A DNA stretch of 33,406 bases, taken from contig JARLIV010000275.1 of NCBI GenBank assembly GCA_031291555.1, positions 1 to 33,406 on the forward strand, written 5' to 3'. This document shows positions 11,192 to 31,547 of the stretch, piece after piece. The DNA is from Methylovirgula sp. (GTDB lineage: Bacteria; Pseudomonadota; Alphaproteobacteria; Rhizobiales; Beijerinckiaceae). Position 1 is the stretch's first letter. Each line of letters opens with the position of its first letter. Under the pieces are notes generated by a model. The model ran no database searches. It was not told the origin of the DNA and saw only the letters and a program-made list of their open reading frames with translations. The translations under genes were made by a program, and so were the position numbers.

Positions 11192-12508
11192 TCACTTTTC
11201 CCGAAAAGCCAGCCTCATCGCGTCGAACACCGGCTCGACAAGAAATCCGAGGACGGTGCGTTCGCCGGTCGAAAAGATCACTTCCGCCGGCATACCAGCG
11301 CGCAGATGCCCCTTCATTTCGGCGGGAATGTCCGTATGGGAGAGCGCGATCTGCGCAAGAAAATAAGGCTGGCGCGTTGTCTCGTCGATCAGCCGATCCC
11401 GCGATATGGTCCCCACCTTTCCCAATATCACCGGAGTGCTCCGGGAATGGAAGGAGGGAAAGCGCACCTCGGCGACCATGTCGTCGCGGATATTGTCCAC
11501 GTCCACCGGCTGAACCTTCGCCTCGACGATCATTTGATCGTCCTGGGGTGCGATTTCCAGTAGGACATCGCCCGGCCGCAGCACCTGGCCGACGGTCGTC
11601 ACCTTCAGGTTTTGTACGGTTCCCGAGCGCGGCGCGAGGAGGATCGTGCGATGCAGCGAATCCGAAGCTACGCGCAAGCGGTCCGCGGCATCCGAAACCT
11701 TTTCGCGTACGCCCTCCAGCGAGGAGGCGACATCCTCCTCAAATTTCTGCTGCTGGGTCCGGATCTGAAGTTCAATGTCGGCAATGCTGTCGGCCGCCTT
11801 GGCCTTGTCGACATTATTACGCCCGAGAACGCCTTCAAGCCGTGCCTGCTCGCTTTCGAGCGCATCCCTGCGCGACTTTTCGACAAGTCCCCGCTCGGCC
11901 AGCGCGTTTATATCGACAAGCTCGTCGGAGATGAGAGCGAGCTGCTTCTCGGCCGCGGCGCGCTCGACCTTCAATCCTTCGATCTCGTCCCTCAGGATCG
12001 CCTCGCGATTCCGAAGAATCGAGGTTTGGTCATCGAGCGAAGCCCGCCGCTGCGCGAAGGTGGCGCGCTGATCCTCCAGAATCTGACTGACGCTTTGGAT
12101 ATTGCCGCGACCCAAAAGGTCCTGGGGAAAGGCGATCTGCGGCGCCCGATCGCGTTCGGCGAGCAGACGCGCCGCCTCTGCCCGCAGCGAATCGAACTGG
12201 TTTTGCAGAATATCGAGTTCGGCCTTCGCTTGCGTGTCGTCGAGACGGAAGAGGACGTCTCCCTTGCGGACCTCGGCGCCCTCTCGCGTATCGATCTCCC
12301 GGACGATGCCCCCCTCAAGATGCTGCACAAGCTGAAGACGCGTTTCATCCGCCACCGCACCCGCCGCCACGACAGCGCTGTCGATCTCGGACCACGCAGC
12401 CCAGGCGCCGACACCACCAAAGCAGGTCAGCACGACAATGTAGCCAAGCAGGGCGATCGGCTTGTAATTGCTTGAGTAGGGAGAAGGTTTGAGCATCGCT
12501 GATCGCAA
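11192..12508 (-). CDS. HlyD-family type I secretion periplasmic adaptor
   Basis: ALLGYIVVLTCFGGVGAWAAWSEIDSAVVAAGAVADETRLQLVQHLEGGIVREIDTREGAEVRKGDVLFRLDDTQAKAELDIL; next to a PrtD-type ABC exporter. Confidence 0.93.
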   Translation of the reverse strand: MRSAMLKPSPYSSNYKPIALLGYIVVLTCFGGVGAWAAWSEIDSAVVAAGAVADETRLQLVQHLEGGIVREIDTREGAEVRKGDVLFRLDDTQAKAELDILQNQFDSLRAEAARLLAERDRAPQIAFPQDLLGRGNIQSVSQILEDQRATFAQRRASLDDQTSILRNREAILRDEIEGLKVERAAAEKQLALISDELVDINALAERGLVEKSRRDALESEQARLEGVLGRNNVDKAKAADSIADIELQIRTQQQKFEEDVASSLEGVREKVSDAADRLRVASDSLHRTILLAPRSGTVQNLKVTTVGQVLRPGDVLLEIAPQDDQMIVEAKVQPVDVDNIRDDMVAEVRFPSFHSRSTPVILGKVGTISRDRLIDETTRQPYFLAQIALSHTDIPAEMKGHLRAGMPAEVIFSTGERTVLGFLVEPVFDAMRLAFREK

Positions 12509-12525
12509 TTCGCGAGGTGAAGGAA

Positions 12526-14292
12526 TCAGGCGGCCGACACGGGTTGCACCCTGCCGCGGCCGGTATCCGGGATGGCCACGACGCGGTTTTCGAGAAGCGC
12601 ATTCACGATCTGCTCACGCGGGCCCACGGCGTGAATTCGCCCGGCGTGCATAACTGCGATAAAATCGGCGAGCGAAAGAATATTCTGCTTGTGGCTGACG
12701 ATCACGACGCTGCGGCCGACCCGCTTCAGCGTCGCGATCGCCTGCAGAAGTGCCCTTTCGCCAAGAGAATCCAGGCTCGAATCCGGCTCGTCGAGCACGA
12801 CGAACGCCGGCAATCCGTAAAGCGCGCGGGCAAGCCCGATCAATTGCCGCTGACCGCCTGAGAGCGCATGCCCGCCCTCCCCGATCTGCGTATTATAGCC
12901 GTCGGCGAGCTGCTGGATCATTTCGTGCACACCGGCGATCTCCGCAGCGGCGATAATTTCCTTGGCGTCCGCATCCGGGGCAAAGCGCGAGATATTCTCG
13001 CCGACGGTTCCGGGGAAGAGTTCGACGTCCTGAGGAAGATAGCCGATGTTGTGGCCGAGATCGTCCGGATTCCAGTGGCTGAGTTCGGAACCGTCCAGCC
13101 GCACGGTTCCCGACGAGGGTGGCCAAACGCCAGTCATCACACGCAGAAGACTGGACTTGCCGGCGGCGCTCGGACCAACGAGGCCGAAAACGGCCCCGGC
13201 GGGAATGTCTAGCGTGACGTTGCTCAGGATCGGCGTGTGACGGCCGGGGGCATGCGCGCCGACGTTCTCAAACGTGATGCGACCGCGCGGATCGGGCAGC
13301 TTCAGAACGGCAGGCGCAGGAGGCGCATGTTGCAGCAGGCCGGTAAGGCGCCGGCGCGCTTCCCGCGTCGCGGTGAACTGCTTCCACTGGCCGATCGCGA
13401 TCTCGACCGGACTGAGCGCCTTGCCGACGATGATCGATGCCGCGATCATCATGCCCGGCGTCACCTGCCGCTGGATCACCAGATAGGCGCCAAGACCTAG
13501 GACAAGGCTCTGCAGGAACATCCGGGTGAAGCGCGTTGCGGAAATGACGACGCTGCTGTGGTCGCTCGCCAAGGATTGCCAATTCAGCGCGGCTTCGTGG
13601 TCCCCGGCCCAGCGCAGGCGCAGGCTCTCGGTCATGCCCATCGCCTGCAGAACTTCCGCATTCCGGAAGGTGCTGATCGCCCGAGTGGTCGCAACATGAG
13701 CGCTGCGCGAGGCCTGATCAAGAGAGCGCCGTGTCAGCCATTCGTTGGCGGCGGCGAGCGAAAAGGTGATGAGGCCCGCCGCGACGGCCAGAATGCCATA
13801 GAGCGGATTGAGGAAGAAAGCCGCGGCCAAATAGATCGGAACCCAGGGGATATCGCAACAGGCGAGAAGACCGGAACCCGTGTAGAATTCGCGGATCGTG
13901 TCGATGTCCTTGAGGCATTGGGCGTGGCGCGCCGAGGGCTGCAGGACACTCGCCTTTTGTACGGCGCGGAAGACATCCGCGCGAGCCGTCTGGTCGAACA
14001 GGACCCCCGACCTTATGAGCAGCTTGGCACGCAAGGCTTCGAGTGTGGCTGTCGTCGCGTAGATGAAACCGACGATCAGCGTCAGAGCTACGAGCGTGGC
14101 GAGATTCCGGCTCGTCAGCACGCGATCGTAAACCTGCAGCATGTAGATCGGCCCCGCGAGGCCGAAGAGATTGATGAAGAAGCCGAAGATAATCGCCGTC
14201 AGAAAGGCGGGCCGCGTCGCCCGCATCGCCAACTGGAGGGCATTGGCCCCGTCGTGGGGCTCGTCGCGCTGAATTTTTCCGTGGTACGTCAT
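12526..14292 (-). CDS. Type I secretion system permease/ATPase (PrtD-like)
   Basis: GLAGPIYMLQVYDRVLTSRNLATLVALT; Walker A GPSAAGKSS, signature LSGGQRQ, Walker B FVVLDEPDSSLD. Confidence 0.94.
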   Translation of the reverse strand: MTYHGKIQRDEPHDGANALQLAMRATRPAFLTAIIFGFFINLFGLAGPIYMLQVYDRVLTSRNLATLVALTLIVGFIYATTATLEALRAKLLIRSGVLFDQTARADVFRAVQKASVLQPSARHAQCLKDIDTIREFYTGSGLLACCDIPWVPIYLAAAFFLNPLYGILAVAAGLITFSLAAANEWLTRRSLDQASRSAHVATTRAISTFRNAEVLQAMGMTESLRLRWAGDHEAALNWQSLASDHSSVVISATRFTRMFLQSLVLGLGAYLVIQRQVTPGMMIAASIIVGKALSPVEIAIGQWKQFTATREARRRLTGLLQHAPPAPAVLKLPDPRGRITFENVGAHAPGRHTPILSNVTLDIPAGAVFGLVGPSAAGKSSLLRVMTGVWPPSSGTVRLDGSELSHWNPDDLGHNIGYLPQDVELFPGTVGENISRFAPDADAKEIIAAAEIAGVHEMIQQLADGYNTQIGEGGHALSGGQRQLIGLARALYGLPAFVVLDEPDSSLDSLGERALLQAIATLKRVGRSVVIVSHKQNILSLADFIAVMHAGRIHAVGPREQIVNALLENRVVAIPDTGRGRVQPVSAA

Positions 14293-14455
14293 GGTCTCCG
14301 CCGACGTCTTGAATCGCGATCCGACGCTTGCTCACGCCCCGAACCAAACGCTCGGCTGTCCGAACCGATACTCGATTCTCCTGCGCAGGCAGAAGAGGCA
14401 CGATCGATGACGCTTACAGGGAGAACGCTTTGAGGGCCGCACCAAGCGAACGCGG

Positions 14456-15538
14456 TTACGCCAGTGCGGCACCCGCTGACGTCAGATGATAGCCCAAAGC
14501 TGCGACTTCGAGCAGATCGTCCGCAGAAAGCGTGTTCTTATACCCTGGCCAGGCAAAGGCGTTGAAGGGATCCTCGCCCGAGGACAGCGTGCCGGCCTGA
14601 GAGACCGACGAATACGAGGCCCAGTCGGCGATATCGCCGCCATATTTCGCGGCATTGTTGAAATTGCCCTCATGCGTCACGCCGCCGTTGGCGGAGAAGT
14701 ACCCTCCGTTTGCAGAGAGCGAGAGCACATTCGGCGAACTGTAGTTGAAGAGATCCAGCGGCGTGTATGTCTTGACTCCATTGTAGGTCACGGTTCCTTC
14801 CATCGCGACCCGCCCCATGACTTCGGTGATCTCGTGCTCCGCAACCGCCTGGAGGCTGAACTGCGTGCCGGATGTACTCATTGAGCTGTAATTCCAGGAA
14901 TAGCCCGTTCCGCTCAATGTGCTGAAGCCGATGTAGCCATCGACGGATGTGGTGCTGCCGCTGGTGCCGCTGATCAGGCCGAGCGCCTTCGCCTCCGCGC
15001 TGGTGACGAAGAACTGTCCGTTCGTCGGCTCGTTCGAAGCCGTGAACGTATAGCCGTCATTCGCGAGCGCATGCGTGACCGTCGAATAATTCGTCAGATA
15101 GCCGTAGCTTTCACTCTCGCCGAGGGCGCTGGGGGACAGAGAAGAGCCCGCGATCTCGCTCCAGCCGACGTTAATATAAACGATGTCCGTCGACGAGGCG
15201 GTGTAGTCGGAAACCAGGGTCTGCGCAGCCGCGATGACCGCTGATGTGAACCCGGACGGCGCATTGGCGACGGACTTGTCCCAGACAAGTTCAATCTCGA
15301 GCTTGCTCCCTGTCGCGCTCACCAGTGTCGGCGCGGGGGTCGCAGGTGCAGACGAGGTGGTATGAGAGTTGCTCGAACCAAAGGGGCCGTGCGATATCAG
15401 ACTCACCGGCGAAAGAGCGCCGGAATCATTCATCAGCAATTCCTGGCCAAGACCATGATTGGCGCTACCGGACGACAACGGCAGCACGCCAGCACCATGT
15501 CCATCGAGGTAGGAATGATCCAGAAACGGGAATGTCAT
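14456..15538 (-). CDS. Putative metalloprotease, likely type I secretion substrate (resembles NF038122-type proteins)
   Basis: 360 aa, Ser/Thr/Gly/Asn-rich, no N-terminal signal peptide; AVAEHEITEVMGRVAMEG motif; C-terminal DLLEVAALGYHLTSAGAALA; immediately upstream of the exporter genes on the same strand. Confidence 0.65.
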   Translation of the reverse strand: MTFPFLDHSYLDGHGAGVLPLSSGSANHGLGQELLMNDSGALSPVSLISHGPFGSSNSHTTSSAPATPAPTLVSATGSKLEIELVWDKSVANAPSGFTSAVIAAAQTLVSDYTASSTDIVYINVGWSEIAGSSLSPSALGESESYGYLTNYSTVTHALANDGYTFTASNEPTNGQFFVTSAEAKALGLISGTSGSTTSVDGYIGFSTLSGTGYSWNYSSMSTSGTQFSLQAVAEHEITEVMGRVAMEGTVTYNGVKTYTPLDLFNYSSPNVLSLSANGGYFSANGGVTHEGNFNNAAKYGGDIADWASYSSVSQAGTLSSGEDPFNAFAWPGYKNTLSADDLLEVAALGYHLTSAGAALA

Positions 15539-16002: not shown

Positions 16003-17262
16003 ATGAGAGAATTTTTAGCACGCGCCGCGGTGGGGCCGCTCCCGCAAACCTTTGTCTTCCCCATTCACGTGCCTTGGACACGACTCGCCAAACTCGGCGG
16101 CGCGGCGGCCATTCTCGCCATCGGCACTTATGCGGTCTTGTCCGATCAATTCGCGATCGTTTCCGACAATGCTGTCGTTTCCGCATATACGATTTCACTG
16201 CGCACCCCAATTGACGGCCTTGTCGGCGGAAAGCCGATGAAAATCGGAGATCTTGTTCAGCGCAGTTCGCTCATCGCGACAGTTACCAACGACCGCGTCG
16301 ACGATCAGCACCTTGTCGATCTGCGCGCGCATCTTGCGCGGGCGCGCGCCGAACTCGCGGCCGTGTCGGCCGAAATGGAAGGCCTCAAAAGTCTCAGCGC
16401 GATCTTACAACAGCGGGCTGATGAGTATAAAGCGGCGAGCACCGCCCGGCTGCGCGGCTCCGTGACGGAGGCGCTGGATCTACTGGTTGCGCTGAACTAT
16501 CGCCGTGATGAAGCCAAACAAACGCTCGACCGCAGCTCGTCCCTGGCGGAACGCGGCTTTGCGTCGACAGCCGATCTCGATCGGGCAAAGGCCAATTTTG
16601 GGTCTCTGTTCAGCCAGGCGGCGGCGCAAAGCGGCCGGCTCGCCTCGCTCGAAGCGCAATTGGCGGCGATCAAGAACGGCATTGTGACCGAACCCGGCTC
16701 GACCGACGTCGCATATTCGCAACAGCGCGAGGATGAAATCGCCATCCGGATTCAGGATTTGATGCAACAGCGTCAGTTCATCGTCTCGGATGTCAACGAA
16801 ACCGCTACGCGTCTGGCAGAAGAGGAAGCCCAGGTCGCCAAGCTGCGCACGGCAACCACGCTCGCCCCGACCTCTGGCATGATCTGGAAAGTCAGCGCCT
16901 CGCCAGGCGAGCGTATCAACGCCGGCGAGCCGATCGCCGAGGTTGTCGATTGCGCCGCTGCTTTCATCATCGCGGATGTACCGCAGACGCGCGTGCCCGA
17001 TATCGAGGTCGGAAGCAAAGCCGAGTTCCTGATCTCGGGAGAGACTGCGAAAAGATATGGCCACGTTGTCTCCGTCACCAGTGACGCAACTGACGGAGAC
17101 CATAATCTCGCGGCCATGCCCTTCGAAGAAAGAGGCGCCACAGCAACCGTGCGCATTCAGATCGACGGCGACAAAGGGTGCTTTGTCGGCCGCAGGGCGC
17201 GCATTGTGCTCCCCTCGGACGGGCCAGGCCTCCTCACCCGCCTAATCAATTATCTGCCGTGA
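16003..17262 (+). CDS. HlyD-like periplasmic adaptor/membrane fusion protein partnered with a glycosyltransferase
   Basis: MREFLARAAVGPLPQTFVFPIHVPWTRLAKLGGAAAILAIGTYAVLSDQFAIVSDNAVVSAYTISLRTPIDGLV...ATTLAPTSGMIWKVSASPGERINAGEPIAEVVDC; one TM, coiled-coil, lipoyl-like halves. Internal start at 16003 preferred over 15799. Confidence 0.82.
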   Translation: MREFLARAAVGPLPQTFVFPIHVPWTRLAKLGGAAAILAIGTYAVLSDQFAIVSDNAVVSAYTISLRTPIDGLVGGKPMKIGDLVQRSSLIATVTNDRVDDQHLVDLRAHLARARAELAAVSAEMEGLKSLSAILQQRADEYKAASTARLRGSVTEALDLLVALNYRRDEAKQTLDRSSSLAERGFASTADLDRAKANFGSLFSQAAAQSGRLASLEAQLAAIKNGIVTEPGSTDVAYSQQREDEIAIRIQDLMQQRQFIVSDVNETATRLAEEEAQVAKLRTATTLAPTSGMIWKVSASPGERINAGEPIAEVVDCAAAFIIADVPQTRVPDIEVGSKAEFLISGETAKRYGHVVSVTSDATDGDHNLAAMPFEERGATATVRIQIDGDKGCFVGRRARIVLPSDGPGLLTRLINYLP

Positions 17263-19205
17263 ACCCGGGTCTCAGCGCCTTCGGCCCACTGCTCCTCAGC
17301 GTCGGCCTTGTTGCCCTCCTTGTCCAGTTCGGGCGTGGACAAGGCGGACTCGTGCGCGCGCTCTTTTCCGCGTTGTGCATAGCGCTCGCCGCGCGCTACG
17401 TCTGGTGGCGTTTTGAATATTCGCTACCCGCGAACCAGAATATCTATCAGCAGGCTTGGGCTTGGATGTTTTTCGCCTTCGAGACCATGTCGATTTGCAG
17501 TTCGACGAGCGTCATCTTGTTCATGTCGCGTCGGGGCGGAAGGACGCCACCCGCACAAATTCCTCCACAGATCGCCTACGCTCCCGTCGATGTCTTTATC
17601 GCGACCTATAACGAACCCTATAATATTCTTGAGCGAACGATCGTCGGAGCCAAAGCAATTGAGCATCCTGACCTGCGGGTGTGGATTCTCGACGATGGCG
17701 CGCGTGATTGGGTCCGGGAGCTCGCCGACGATCTCGGCATCCATTACATCCGGCGCGTGAAAGGCGCGCATGCGAAGGCCGGGAATATCAACAACGGCTT
17801 GCGCCACGCCTTGGCGGCGGGGCGCCGGCCGGACTTCATCCTGGTCCTCGACGCGGACTTCGTTCCCTATCGCAATATCCTCAAACGGACGCTCGGATTA
17901 TTCGCCGAGCCGGATGTCGGAATCGTCCAGACGCCACAGCATTTTTTCAACCCTGATCCGATCCAGAACAACCTCGCGCTGACCCGCGTCTGGCCGGACG
18001 AGCAACGCTTCTTCTTCAACACATTGCTCGCCAGCAAAGACGCCTGGGGCGCGGCCTTCTGCTGCGGAACTTCCGCAGTGTTTCGCGTTGATGCGCTCGT
18101 CGCCGCGGGCGGCATGGCGACGGAAACGGTGACAGAGGATATGCTCACCTCCTTCAAGTTCGGCGAACACGGATATAGCACGATATTTCTCAACGAAATG
18201 CTGAGCATGGGCCTCGCGCCAGAAGGCTTGAGCAGCTATGTCTCGCAGCGCTCGCGCTGGTGCCTTGGCGCGATCCAGCAAATCTACACGCGATGGTCGT
18301 TTGCCGGCCCGGCAAAGATCAACCTTATCAACCGCCTCTCGTCGCTCGATGGCGTGCTTTACTGGATGAGCAACGCGCCGTTCAAGCTGCTGATGATCAC
18401 CGCGCCGCTTGTCTATTGGTGGACACAAACGGCAGTCATCTCGAGCACGCTGGAAACCCTCCTCAATTATCTCGCGCCGTTCGTCGCTTGCTCCATCCTG
18501 TTCATGGGCTTTTATGCTCACAAGCGCATTATTCCGGTCATGACCGATGTAACCCAATTGCTGACGAGTTTCTCGATGGTTGCGACGGTCGCCGTCGCCA
18601 TCGTCAAGCCATGGGGGCATCCGTTCAAGGTCACGGCCAAGGGAATCTCGGCTGACCGCGTCGTCGTGCAATGGCGATATCTGCTCGTGTTCGCGGCGAT
18701 CGCGCTAGGGACCGTAGCGGGAATCATGCGCAATACCGCGCAATTCTCGCCGCTCTACGGCACGGATGGCTATGGCGTGAACGTCTTCTGGAGCATCTTC
18801 AATATCGCCGTCCTCGTCGTTGCCTGCGCGGTTTGCGTCGAGGCTCCGCGCCGGCGAATTGAGGAACGGTTCAATTCCGGCGAGGCGGCGATGGTGCGGC
18901 TCGCCAACGGCTTGCAAGTGCCCTGCGTTGTACGCGACATCTCGCTCGGAGGCGCAAATCTCGCCATCGGCTTCGGCCGCCTGCGCGCTGAGGACCAGGG
19001 ATGCCTCGTGCTTTCGAATGGAATCGAAGCGCCTTTTGCGCAGGTCCGTCAGGCGCAGAGCGGCATCGCAGTCCGATTCCGCCTTGATAAGGAAACGCGG
19101 CGGCAGCTTATCGCCCGGCTCTTCACTGGCGGCTACGCCAACGAAGTGCAACAGATCAAGTTAGGGCGCTTATTCGGCAGCGTAGTTAGGAGATTGGCGG
19201 CCTGA
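17259..19205 (+). CDS. BcsA-like family 2 glycosyltransferase with C-terminal PilZ domain
   Basis: DDGARDW, DADFVP, FCCGTSAVFR, TEDMLTSF, QRSRWCLG, gating-loop-like FKVTAKG, and PilZ motifs RIEER (RxxxR) and DISLGG (D/NxSxxG). GTG start overlaps the upstream stop (GTGA). Confidence 0.92.
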   Translation: MNPGLSAFGPLLLSVGLVALLVQFGRGQGGLVRALFSALCIALAARYVWWRFEYSLPANQNIYQQAWAWMFFAFETMSICSSTSVILFMSRRGGRTPPAQIPPQIAYAPVDVFIATYNEPYNILERTIVGAKAIEHPDLRVWILDDGARDWVRELADDLGIHYIRRVKGAHAKAGNINNGLRHALAAGRRPDFILVLDADFVPYRNILKRTLGLFAEPDVGIVQTPQHFFNPDPIQNNLALTRVWPDEQRFFFNTLLASKDAWGAAFCCGTSAVFRVDALVAAGGMATETVTEDMLTSFKFGEHGYSTIFLNEMLSMGLAPEGLSSYVSQRSRWCLGAIQQIYTRWSFAGPAKINLINRLSSLDGVLYWMSNAPFKLLMITAPLVYWWTQTAVISSTLETLLNYLAPFVACSILFMGFYAHKRIIPVMTDVTQLLTSFSMVATVAVAIVKPWGHPFKVTAKGISADRVVVQWRYLLVFAAIALGTVAGIMRNTAQFSPLYGTDGYGVNVFWSIFNIAVLVVACAVCVEAPRRRIEERFNSGEAAMVRLANGLQVPCVVRDISLGGANLAIGFGRLRAEDQGCLVLSNGIEAPFAQVRQAQSGIAVRFRLDKETRRQLIARLFTGGYANEVQQIKLGRLFGSVVRRLAA

Positions 19206-28631: not shown

Positions 28632-31547
28632 ATGATGGTCAGCCCGAAAAGGCCGTTACTGCCCGAGTATGATCCGGCGGCCAGTTACGTAGGTGATCGC
28701 TACGCGTTCGACGAGTTTCGTCTCTGGCCGGCCAGTCGCGTCCTGACCCGCAATAATGTGCCAGTGCAGCTCGGGGCACGCGCCCTCGACATTCTTATTG
28801 CTCTTGTTGAGCGCGCTGGCCAGGTGGTCGGCAAGACGGAGCTCTTCGCCCTCGTTTGGCCGAATAGGTCCATCGAAGAGAGTAATCTCAGGGTCCATAT
28901 CGCGGCGCTGCGCAAGGCGCTGGGTGACGGGCGATCGGCGACCCGGTTTATTACAAGCGTCCCTGGACGCGGCTACACGTTCGTAGCAGAGGTCGTCCAC
29001 ATCCCACGCCAGGATGAAAAGAAGGAACAGCGGGTAGCTCCCCTCGCTTCCCTTGACCACGCGGGCTTTCCCGCCGCTCTCACGCCACTTTTTGGCCGTG
29101 ACGAGGTTGTTGCTGAAATCGCCGATCAGCTTCCGCGGAAGCGTCTGGTGACGATTACCGGAGCCGGCGGCATCGGAAAGACCGCCGTTGCTCTGGCCGT
29201 CGCCATGCGAGCTGCTAATTCCTATCGCGATGGGTTGCAAATTATCGATCTGGCTCCCTTGGCGCACCCTTCCTTACTTGCCGCGCATCTCGCATCCCTG
29301 CTCCGGTTGCCGGCCGTCAACGAAGAAGAGTCCCTGCCAAAAATTCTGGCGCATTTGCGGCCGCGGGCACAGCTGATCGTGCTCGACAATTGCGAACATG
29401 TTATCGGCGCAGCAAGTGAAATTGCCGAGGCCATTTTGGCGCATGCGCCTGACATTCGCCTTCTGGCGACAAGCCGCGAGCCTTTGCGCTCGGCAGGCGA
29501 GTGGGTCCAACGGCTGACGCCTCTTGCGGTTCCTCCGTCGGCACCGACGCTGAATGCTACGGAGGCCATGCGCTTTGCGGCGGTGCAGCTCTTTGTCGAA
29601 CGATTGCGCGCATGGGACGGTTCGTTCGTGCTGGCTGATAGCGACGCGCAGGTGATCGCCGAGATCTGCGCGCATCTTGACGGGCTGCCGCTCGCCATCG
29701 AGCTTGCCGCGACGCGCGTCCCGCTCTTTGGATTGCGCGGTCTCGCCGACCGTCTCGGCGATCGCTTCAAAATCTTGACCAAGGGCCGTCGCACAGCCGT
29801 CGCGCGGCATCAGACTTTGGGCGCAATGATCGATTGGAGCTACCAGGGCCTGAGCGAGGAGGAAAAGACGGTCTGGCGCCGTCTAAGCATCTTTCCAAGT
29901 TTTTTCACCCTTCAAGCGGCTGACGCGATTGTCAATGACAAGTCGGGCGACGCCATCGGCACGGTTGATGCTCTGGACGATCTGCTGCAAAAGTCGTTGA
30001 TCGTCTCCGATTCGAGCAATGGCGAAACCCGCTATCGCCTGCTTGAGTCGCTTCGGCTCTACGCCTTCACCGAGCTCCTGGAGAACCAGGAGGCCGAATA
30101 TATGAGACGCCGGCATGCGCAATATTGGTATGAACGCTCCGTCGGATCGGGCGACACTTGGCTTGAAGTGCCCAAGGCCGAATGGCTCGTAAGGCACGGC
30201 GGCGATGTCGCTGATCTGCGCGCCGCGCTCGATTGGGCGTTTGCGCCGGGTGGAGACCCAGCGCTTGGCATCCGGATCGTCGCAGCCTCCGCGCCGTTTT
30301 GGTTCAAGATGTTGTTGCTGCCGGAGCTGCGGCGTTACCTGGAGCGCGCCATTCCACTCTCCGAGGGGATGACGGAAATCGAAGACGCCGAGCGTATTCG
30401 CCTGCATATCGCGCTCGGTCAGGCTATGATCTGGTCCAAGGGTTGGGGCGCCGAGGAAGTGAAGGCTGCTTTTAGCCGTGCAAGGGAGCTTGCGACTGCA
30501 GCGAGCAATGCCGACGAACGCTTCCAGATTTTCTACGGCCTCACGCTCAGCAGTCTCCTGCGCGGTGAACTGCGATTGGCGCGGCAAACCGCCGAAATAT
30601 TTTTGCGCGAAGCGACGGCTGAAGGCCGCGCGGCAGAAGCTGCGGTCGCCAATCGCAATCTAGGTCTAACATGCTTCTTTCAAGGCGAAATCACAAAGGC
30701 GCAAGCATGTCTTGAAGAGGGGCTGAGAATTTACGATCCAAAGGCCGGGCGGGATTCCATGGTTCACTTCGCACAGGATCACCGCGCTGTCGCGGCTGCC
30801 TTTCTCGCTAAAGCTAATTGGGTGCTTGGCGAAGTCGGGCGGGCGCGTGAGCTGATTGAAGGGGCGATCACGCGTGCGACCGAAGCCGAGCATATGCCAA
30901 CCCTGGCCAACGTTTATCTCTTCAGGGCCTACATCGAAATGCTCCGTGGCGACGCCGAAGCTGTACTTAGTTCTGCCGAAACGGTCATCGAAATTTGTCG
31001 GGAGCATGGGCTCGCGCATTCTCTTGCGTACGGAGAAACTTTCCTCGCTTGGGCGCGCGCTCGGCTCGCCGATGGCCGAACCCGAGCAACAATGCTCGGC
31101 GACGCATTGGTCGCACTCAGCAGTTCAGGAAACGGGCTGCTCCGGCCGATTTTCCGTGGCTTGCTTGCTGAGCTTGAAGCTGAAGAGCGAGGCTTTGAAG
31201 ACGCCTTACGACGCATCGATGAAGCTTTGGCGTTTGCAGCCACATCGGGAGAACACTGGACCGACGCTGTCTTGTACCGTATCCGTGGCGAGCTTTTATT
31301 GAAGTTCGGTGCGACGGCCTCGGCGGCGGAAGAAGCCTTCCGCACTGCTATCGACATCGCGCGGCAGCAGAAAGCGAGGAGTTTTGAACTGGCGGCGGCG
31401 GTCCCATTGGCGAAGCTTTATCAGAGCATAAACCGCCCTGGCGACGCGCATGCGCTGCTGGCATCAGCACTCCAAGGCTTTTCGCCGACGCCGGAATTTC
31501 CAAAAATTGCCGAGGCGCAGGCGCTTCTTAATGCGCTTGCGCCGTAA
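28632..31547 (+). CDS. Winged-helix (OmpR-type) transcriptional regulator with STAND/NB-ARC-like ATPase and TPR-like C-terminus
   Basis: FDEFRLWPASRVLTRNNVPVQLGARALDILIALVERAGQVVGKTELFALVWPNRSIEESNLRVHIAALRKALGDG...FITSVPGRGYTFVAEV; TPLFGRDEVV; ITGAGGIGKTAVA; LIVLDNCEHV; LATSREPLR; alpha-helical repeats after ~aa 500. Confidence 0.93.
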   Translation: MMVSPKRPLLPEYDPAASYVGDRYAFDEFRLWPASRVLTRNNVPVQLGARALDILIALVERAGQVVGKTELFALVWPNRSIEESNLRVHIAALRKALGDGRSATRFITSVPGRGYTFVAEVVHIPRQDEKKEQRVAPLASLDHAGFPAALTPLFGRDEVVAEIADQLPRKRLVTITGAGGIGKTAVALAVAMRAANSYRDGLQIIDLAPLAHPSLLAAHLASLLRLPAVNEEESLPKILAHLRPRAQLIVLDNCEHVIGAASEIAEAILAHAPDIRLLATSREPLRSAGEWVQRLTPLAVPPSAPTLNATEAMRFAAVQLFVERLRAWDGSFVLADSDAQVIAEICAHLDGLPLAIELAATRVPLFGLRGLADRLGDRFKILTKGRRTAVARHQTLGAMIDWSYQGLSEEEKTVWRRLSIFPSFFTLQAADAIVNDKSGDAIGTVDALDDLLQKSLIVSDSSNGETRYRLLESLRLYAFTELLENQEAEYMRRRHAQYWYERSVGSGDTWLEVPKAEWLVRHGGDVADLRAALDWAFAPGGDPALGIRIVAASAPFWFKMLLLPELRRYLERAIPLSEGMTEIEDAERIRLHIALGQAMIWSKGWGAEEVKAAFSRARELATAASNADERFQIFYGLTLSSLLRGELRLARQTAEIFLREATAEGRAAEAAVANRNLGLTCFFQGEITKAQACLEEGLRIYDPKAGRDSMVHFAQDHRAVAAAFLAKANWVLGEVGRARELIEGAITRATEAEHMPTLANVYLFRAYIEMLRGDAEAVLSSAETVIEICREHGLAHSLAYGETFLAWARARLADGRTRATMLGDALVALSSSGNGLLRPIFRGLLAELEAEERGFEDALRRIDEALAFAATSGEHWTDAVLYRIRGELLLKFGATASAAEEAFRTAIDIARQQKARSFELAAAVPLAKLYQSINRPGDAHALLASALQGFSPTPEFPKIAEAQALLNALAP

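Follow-up and report, generated by a model that had tools for sequence, protein, structure and literature searches.

The two overlapping genes at positions 16003–19205 of the window (the whole 33,406-nucleotide stretch of Methylovirgula sp. DNA analysed here) probably encode a c-di-GMP-gated synthase-exporter of a linear β-glucan, a reading from sequence and structural modelling to which we assign a probability of roughly 0.7. The points counted in its favor are the match to the BcsA fold, the conservation of Glu322 and Arg533, the adjacent adaptor, its docking signature, the OEP and GGDEF domains of the genome, and the GH8 genes beside three relatives. Those counted against it are the sub-threshold Pfam PilZ match, the lack of a recurrent TolC gene, the unmatched linkage residues, and the lack of both a GH8 match in the assembly and a close relative in the genus-mates searched.

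In the proposed mechanism, UDP-glucose would be polymerised by the synthase, which would also drive the growing chain across the inner membrane. Without c-di-GMP, Arg533 would hold Glu322, as Arg580 holds Glu371 in the latch of R. sphaeroides BcsA (PMC5567048), and c-di-GMP would free this latch. The adaptor would take the chain and dock on one of the TolC-family proteins of the genome, replacing BcsB and BcsC. If this reading is correct, a single HlyD-coupled family descended from a PilZ-bearing ancestor would make mixed-linkage glucan, curdlan and a further polymer. It would then be possible to test directly by what means BgsA, which lacks PilZ motifs, binds c-di-GMP, and through which channel of the envelope these glucans leave the cell in the absence of BcsB and BcsC.

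Gene pair and host genome

Both open reading frames are real and lie where the initial annotation had placed them, with the start codon of the synthase and the stop codon of the adaptor sharing positions 17259–17262 (Table 1). The same −4 overlap recurs in many relatives.

Table 1. Features of the adaptor–synthase locus, numbered by position in the window.
Feature	Position	Strand	Details and basis
HlyD-family periplasmic adaptor (membrane fusion protein)	16003..17262	+	419 aa, ATG 16003 to TGA 17262; Pfam HlyD_3, E 1.2e-16
GTGA overlap of synthase start codon and adaptor stop codon	17259..17262	+	sequence
Predicted GT2 β-glucan synthase, BcsA-like fold and C-terminal PilZ domain	17259..19205	+	648 aa, GTG start; TIGR03030 score, AlphaFold, Foldseek, tree
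Synthase tail beyond the final membrane helix (residues 528–648)	18840..19202	+	predicted six-stranded barrel (538–607) and two helices (611–622, 635–647)
RxxxR of the PilZ domain (R533–R537)	18855..18869	+	sequence motif
DISLGG, DxSxxG motif of the PilZ domain (residues 560–565)	18936..18953	+	sequence motif

The host assembly contains 2.42 Mb in 278 contigs and is 88% complete. The absence of bcsB, originally noted for the neighbourhood, extends to the whole assembly, in which a search for BcsB (PF03170) gave no match while the control search did find BcsB in E. coli; a GH8 was likewise not found, and at 88% completeness neither absence is proof. No second close BcsA-like synthase was detected in the genome, which contains two remote GT2 matches only. 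Ten matches to OEP (TolC-family) domains are distributed over five contigs, and six GGDEF domains score over the cut-off. The contig fits the genome, since a dehydrogenase in the neighbourhood is 81% identical to that of a genus-mate; among the genes compared with one genus-mate, the nearby matches were a molybdenum dehydrogenase and FeS genes only. An Rfam scan and scans for promoters and terminators gave nothing exceeding chance. Elsewhere in the window, a type I secretion ABC transporter and a HlyD adaptor (positions 11192–15538, − strand) are found beside an NF038122-family metalloprotease, which may be a substrate for secretion, and a 971-residue protein (positions 28632–31547, + strand) contains an OmpR-type DNA-binding domain, an NTPase domain and TPR-like repeats.

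The synthase and its C-terminal domain

The synthase contains Pfam GT2 domains and displays the BcsA motifs DD (residues 145–146), DxD (D198/D200), TED (292–294), QxxRW (QRSRW, 330–334) and FxVTxK (gating loop FKVTAKG, from residue 456), together with PilZ. The initial annotation had described a full BcsA-type motif set; every motif that it listed is present, but FCCGT (residues 267–271) is not a motif of BcsA. The canonical BcsAs compared here have FFCGS instead, with phenylalanine at the position of the first cysteine and serine at that of the threonine in 9 of 9, whereas the first cysteine is found in 126 of 130 HlyD-type synthases. The score against NCBIfam TIGR03030 (CelA) is 391 bits, far under the curated cut-off of 699.

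The AlphaFold model of the synthase (pLDDT 92.8) was compared over the whole chain with c-di-GMP-bound BcsA using Foldseek, and is highly similar to it (TMq 0.90 for 9b8v and 0.89 for 4p00). Its tail combines the RxxxR and D/NxS/AxxG motifs of PilZ c-di-GMP receptors with a predicted six-stranded barrel. The Pfam PilZ match is sub-threshold (E 9.3e-4, 19.9 bits vs 22.5), yet the motifs and the predicted fold support the domain, in agreement with the original assignment. Arg533 and Glu322 are the counterparts of the two latch residues of R. sphaeroides BcsA, and are conserved in 96/130 and 128/130 HlyD-type synthases, respectively.

It is improbable that the PilZ domain is present yet does not bind c-di-GMP, leaving the synthase constitutive or otherwise regulated. 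The low Pfam score and the loss of the motifs in related clades, some of them beside a cache-domain gene, are consistent with such an arrangement; however, this synthase and 69 of the best 80 named relatives (the top by similarity, so that such fractions are not unbiased) keep the two motifs intact, and these stand out in the alignment against an otherwise variable tail.

Phylogeny and polymer linkage

A tree of 58 rows, calculated with the tail columns left out, separates the HlyD-type synthases from BcsA with 100/100 support. Within the HlyD-type group are a BgsA clade, a CrdS clade, the clade of the window synthase (100/100) and a large remaining clade; S. meliloti BgsA was recognised by R535/R536 at the published positions, and CrdS by an exact match of ten published residues in two loci (L119 and L120). 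The window synthase is outside the BgsA clade, the CrdS clade and proteobacterial BcsA. The phylogeny against BcsA, BgsA and CrdS that had been proposed beforehand thus does not place the glycosyltransferase inside canonical cellulose BcsA (100/100), which agrees with the earlier suggestion of a polysaccharide that is possibly not cellulose, although the polymer itself is named by homology only. A survey of these synthases left proteobacterial clade 4 without known function (PMC6821405).

Canonical BcsA-BcsB shares the fold, catalytic motifs, gating loop and PilZ domain with the window synthase, and differs in its BcsB/BcsC partners, an insertion after the DD motif of BcsA, the FFCGS motif and its distinct clade. 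The combination of a PilZ-bearing synthase with a HlyD protein is not new and has already been described: cyanobacterial XcsA-XcsB (e.g. Thermosynechococcus Tll0007/Tlr0903) pairs a PilZ-bearing BcsA-like synthase with a HlyD-like adaptor, has no BcsB, is reported to make cellulose, and has a proposed TolC partner (PMC12430437). Most alphaproteobacterial relatives also combine both. Judged by the published description, the window pair has the composition of this XcsA-XcsB-TolC type, a PilZ synthase and a HlyD adaptor without BcsB; the described systems differ in being cyanobacterial and in their reported cellulose product.

To assess the polymer, nine positions were compared that have been singled out as distinguishing cellulose from curdlan synthases, or that neighbor such positions (PMC6821405). 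A different set of residues occupies them in BcsA, in CrdS, in BgsA and in the window clade, that of the window synthase being Q227, Q249, F253, K260, D364, Y368, W369, D430 and Q433. The finding speaks against a plain cellulose synthase, without naming the product; because the set matches neither BcsA, CrdS nor BgsA, “glucan” is used by homology only. A plain cellulose synthase in which the HlyD adaptor replaces BcsB, as proposed for XcsA-XcsB, is accordingly rather unlikely. The shared PilZ and HlyD architecture (PMC12430437), the full BcsA-like fold and the GH8 genes beside three relatives would suit it, but the synthase separates at 100/100 from the BcsA rows of the tree, which are proteobacterial, and has Q227, Q249, K260 and Q433 in place of the H, N, L and E of BcsA.

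A mixed-linkage (1,3;1,4) or a (1,3) β-glucan, like those of the nearest characterised relatives BgsA and CrdS, is a serious possibility at somewhat under even odds. The window synthase groups with these enzymes rather than with BcsA, shares Q227, Q249 and F253 with both and K260 with CrdS, and its two-gene layout is that of bgsBA. On the other hand, it is outside both clades, and D364, D430 and Q433 at its channel entrance take the place of the CrdS residues H374 and H442 (at the positions of D364 and Q433) and of the P/S/G residues of BgsA. The GH8 genes beside three relatives give a hint of β-1,4 bonds, and the polymer is, judging by sequence, probably a β-glucan with β-1,4 bonds.

The likeness to S. 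meliloti BgsB-BgsA extends to the HlyD-family gene directly upstream, which overlaps the BcsA-like GT2 gene, to the arginine and leucine of the docking signature in BgsB, and to the synthase tail, which is of similar length and has the end helices in common. Y633, G635 and R656 of BgsA, which are required for activity (PMC5567048), correspond to F622, G624 and R645. BgsA differs in lacking RxxxR and DxSxxG, in its clade and in its channel-entrance residues. The Agrobacterium CrdA-CrdS-CrdC (curdlan) system also has a HlyD-family gene upstream of the synthase, whereas CrdS lacks the PilZ motifs, has H374/W422/H442 and is followed by a third gene. In the Agrobacterium plasmid loci L119 (2303–7236) and L120, the HlyD-family gene is at the crdA position, so that an adaptor of this kind may serve curdlan as well.

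The tree requires seven or more changes in the state of the PilZ motifs, six of these inside the HlyD group by our reading. The site seems to have been lost several times, BgsA and CrdS being among the cases. Counting changes alone cannot separate gain from loss; loss explains the pattern more simply, since most of the BcsA outgroup carries PilZ and intact motifs are found in the rows adjoining BgsA and CrdS (L014, on a long branch, and L075).

The tail of BgsA was found in a 2017 study to bind c-di-GMP, with no PilZ (PMC5567048), in line with the statement of the initial annotation that BgsA lacks this domain. Two BgsA-type loci were identified (L114, 3905–5899; L165, 3001–4992), the L165 synthase being 65% identical to BgsA. 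Its chain matches BcsA with a TMq of 0.84–0.88, and its tail is predicted as a six-stranded barrel with strands in register with the window PilZ domain, a prediction biased by the PilZ-bearing rows in its alignment. SLSLDK of BgsA aligns with DISLGG of the window synthase. The two binding residues of BgsA, R599 and H615, are located in a stretch that is absent from the PilZ-bearing rows of the alignment, and are not clearly kept in L165. The full BgsA tail gives a strong profile match (98.6%), which is carried by the C-terminal helix; for the barrel part alone, three other motif-less groups match at 96–97%. That the BgsA barrel could be recognised as PilZ from its sequence alone was rejected, the barrel part scoring 17.0 where shuffled controls reached up to 16.0. 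As a hypothesis from the models, the “novel c-di-GMP domain” of BgsA may be a remodelled PilZ domain. In a wider reading, to which we give somewhat under even odds, the pair could represent a large uncharacterised class, controlled by c-di-GMP, with HlyD-TolC export of a non-cellulose β-glucan, and its intact PilZ tail would mark both the BgsA domain and the orphan tail of CrdS as remodelled PilZ domains.

The adaptor and the distribution of the pair

The adaptor is a HlyD_3 protein with one hydrophobic N-terminal segment (residues ~28–53), as expected for the one-TM partner originally described. It contains the docking signature R177-x3-L181-x3-G185-x2-S188, and among 68 aligned adaptors R177 is conserved in 67, L181 in 64, G185 in 61 and S/T188 in 49. 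The RxxxLxxxxxxS/T signature has been shown to bind TolC in HlyD, AcrA and MacA, and its mutation abolishes TolC binding in HlyD (PMC3391258). With the arginine and leucine so widely conserved, the suggested role as a periplasmic conduit is plausible. Cys317 and Cys393 are 97% conserved in the same adaptors, and a disulfide between them is possible. Among the neighbor genes of the relatives' loci, no recurrent TolC gene was found.

In a sample of 120 relatives, a match was found in 37 genomes, which split into a group at 33–41% identity, mostly with a neighboring adaptor, and canonical BcsAs at ~30% without one. Within the same taxonomic order, 17 of 248 other sampled genomes gave a match at E 1e-95. 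In the similarity-ranked set of 80 named relatives, the adaptor is directly upstream in 79 and 464 bases off in the remaining one. The pair is a widespread, largely uncharacterised variant of a known design, and is not unique. The nearest relatives (46–64% identity) are mainly from Acetobacteraceae and other alphaproteobacterial assemblies, and no close relative of the synthase was found in the genus-mates searched, a distribution that suggests acquisition by transfer; the synthase may be a recent acquisition or strain-specific.

Three relatives have a GH8 gene next to the pair; in L048 (2641–6857, Komagataeibacter sp. FXV3), which belongs to the window's clade, GH8, HlyD and synthase genes are in a row. 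A gene for a cache-domain protein recurs near the pair (L118, 6875–7981; L121, 6456–7679; and nine other loci), mostly where the synthase lacks the PilZ motifs, and is convergent in L115, L118 and L121; its product is a possible alternative regulator of the synthase. Such synthases are also found on two IMG/VR “viral” contigs (L033 and L165), which are probably host or mobile-element DNA.
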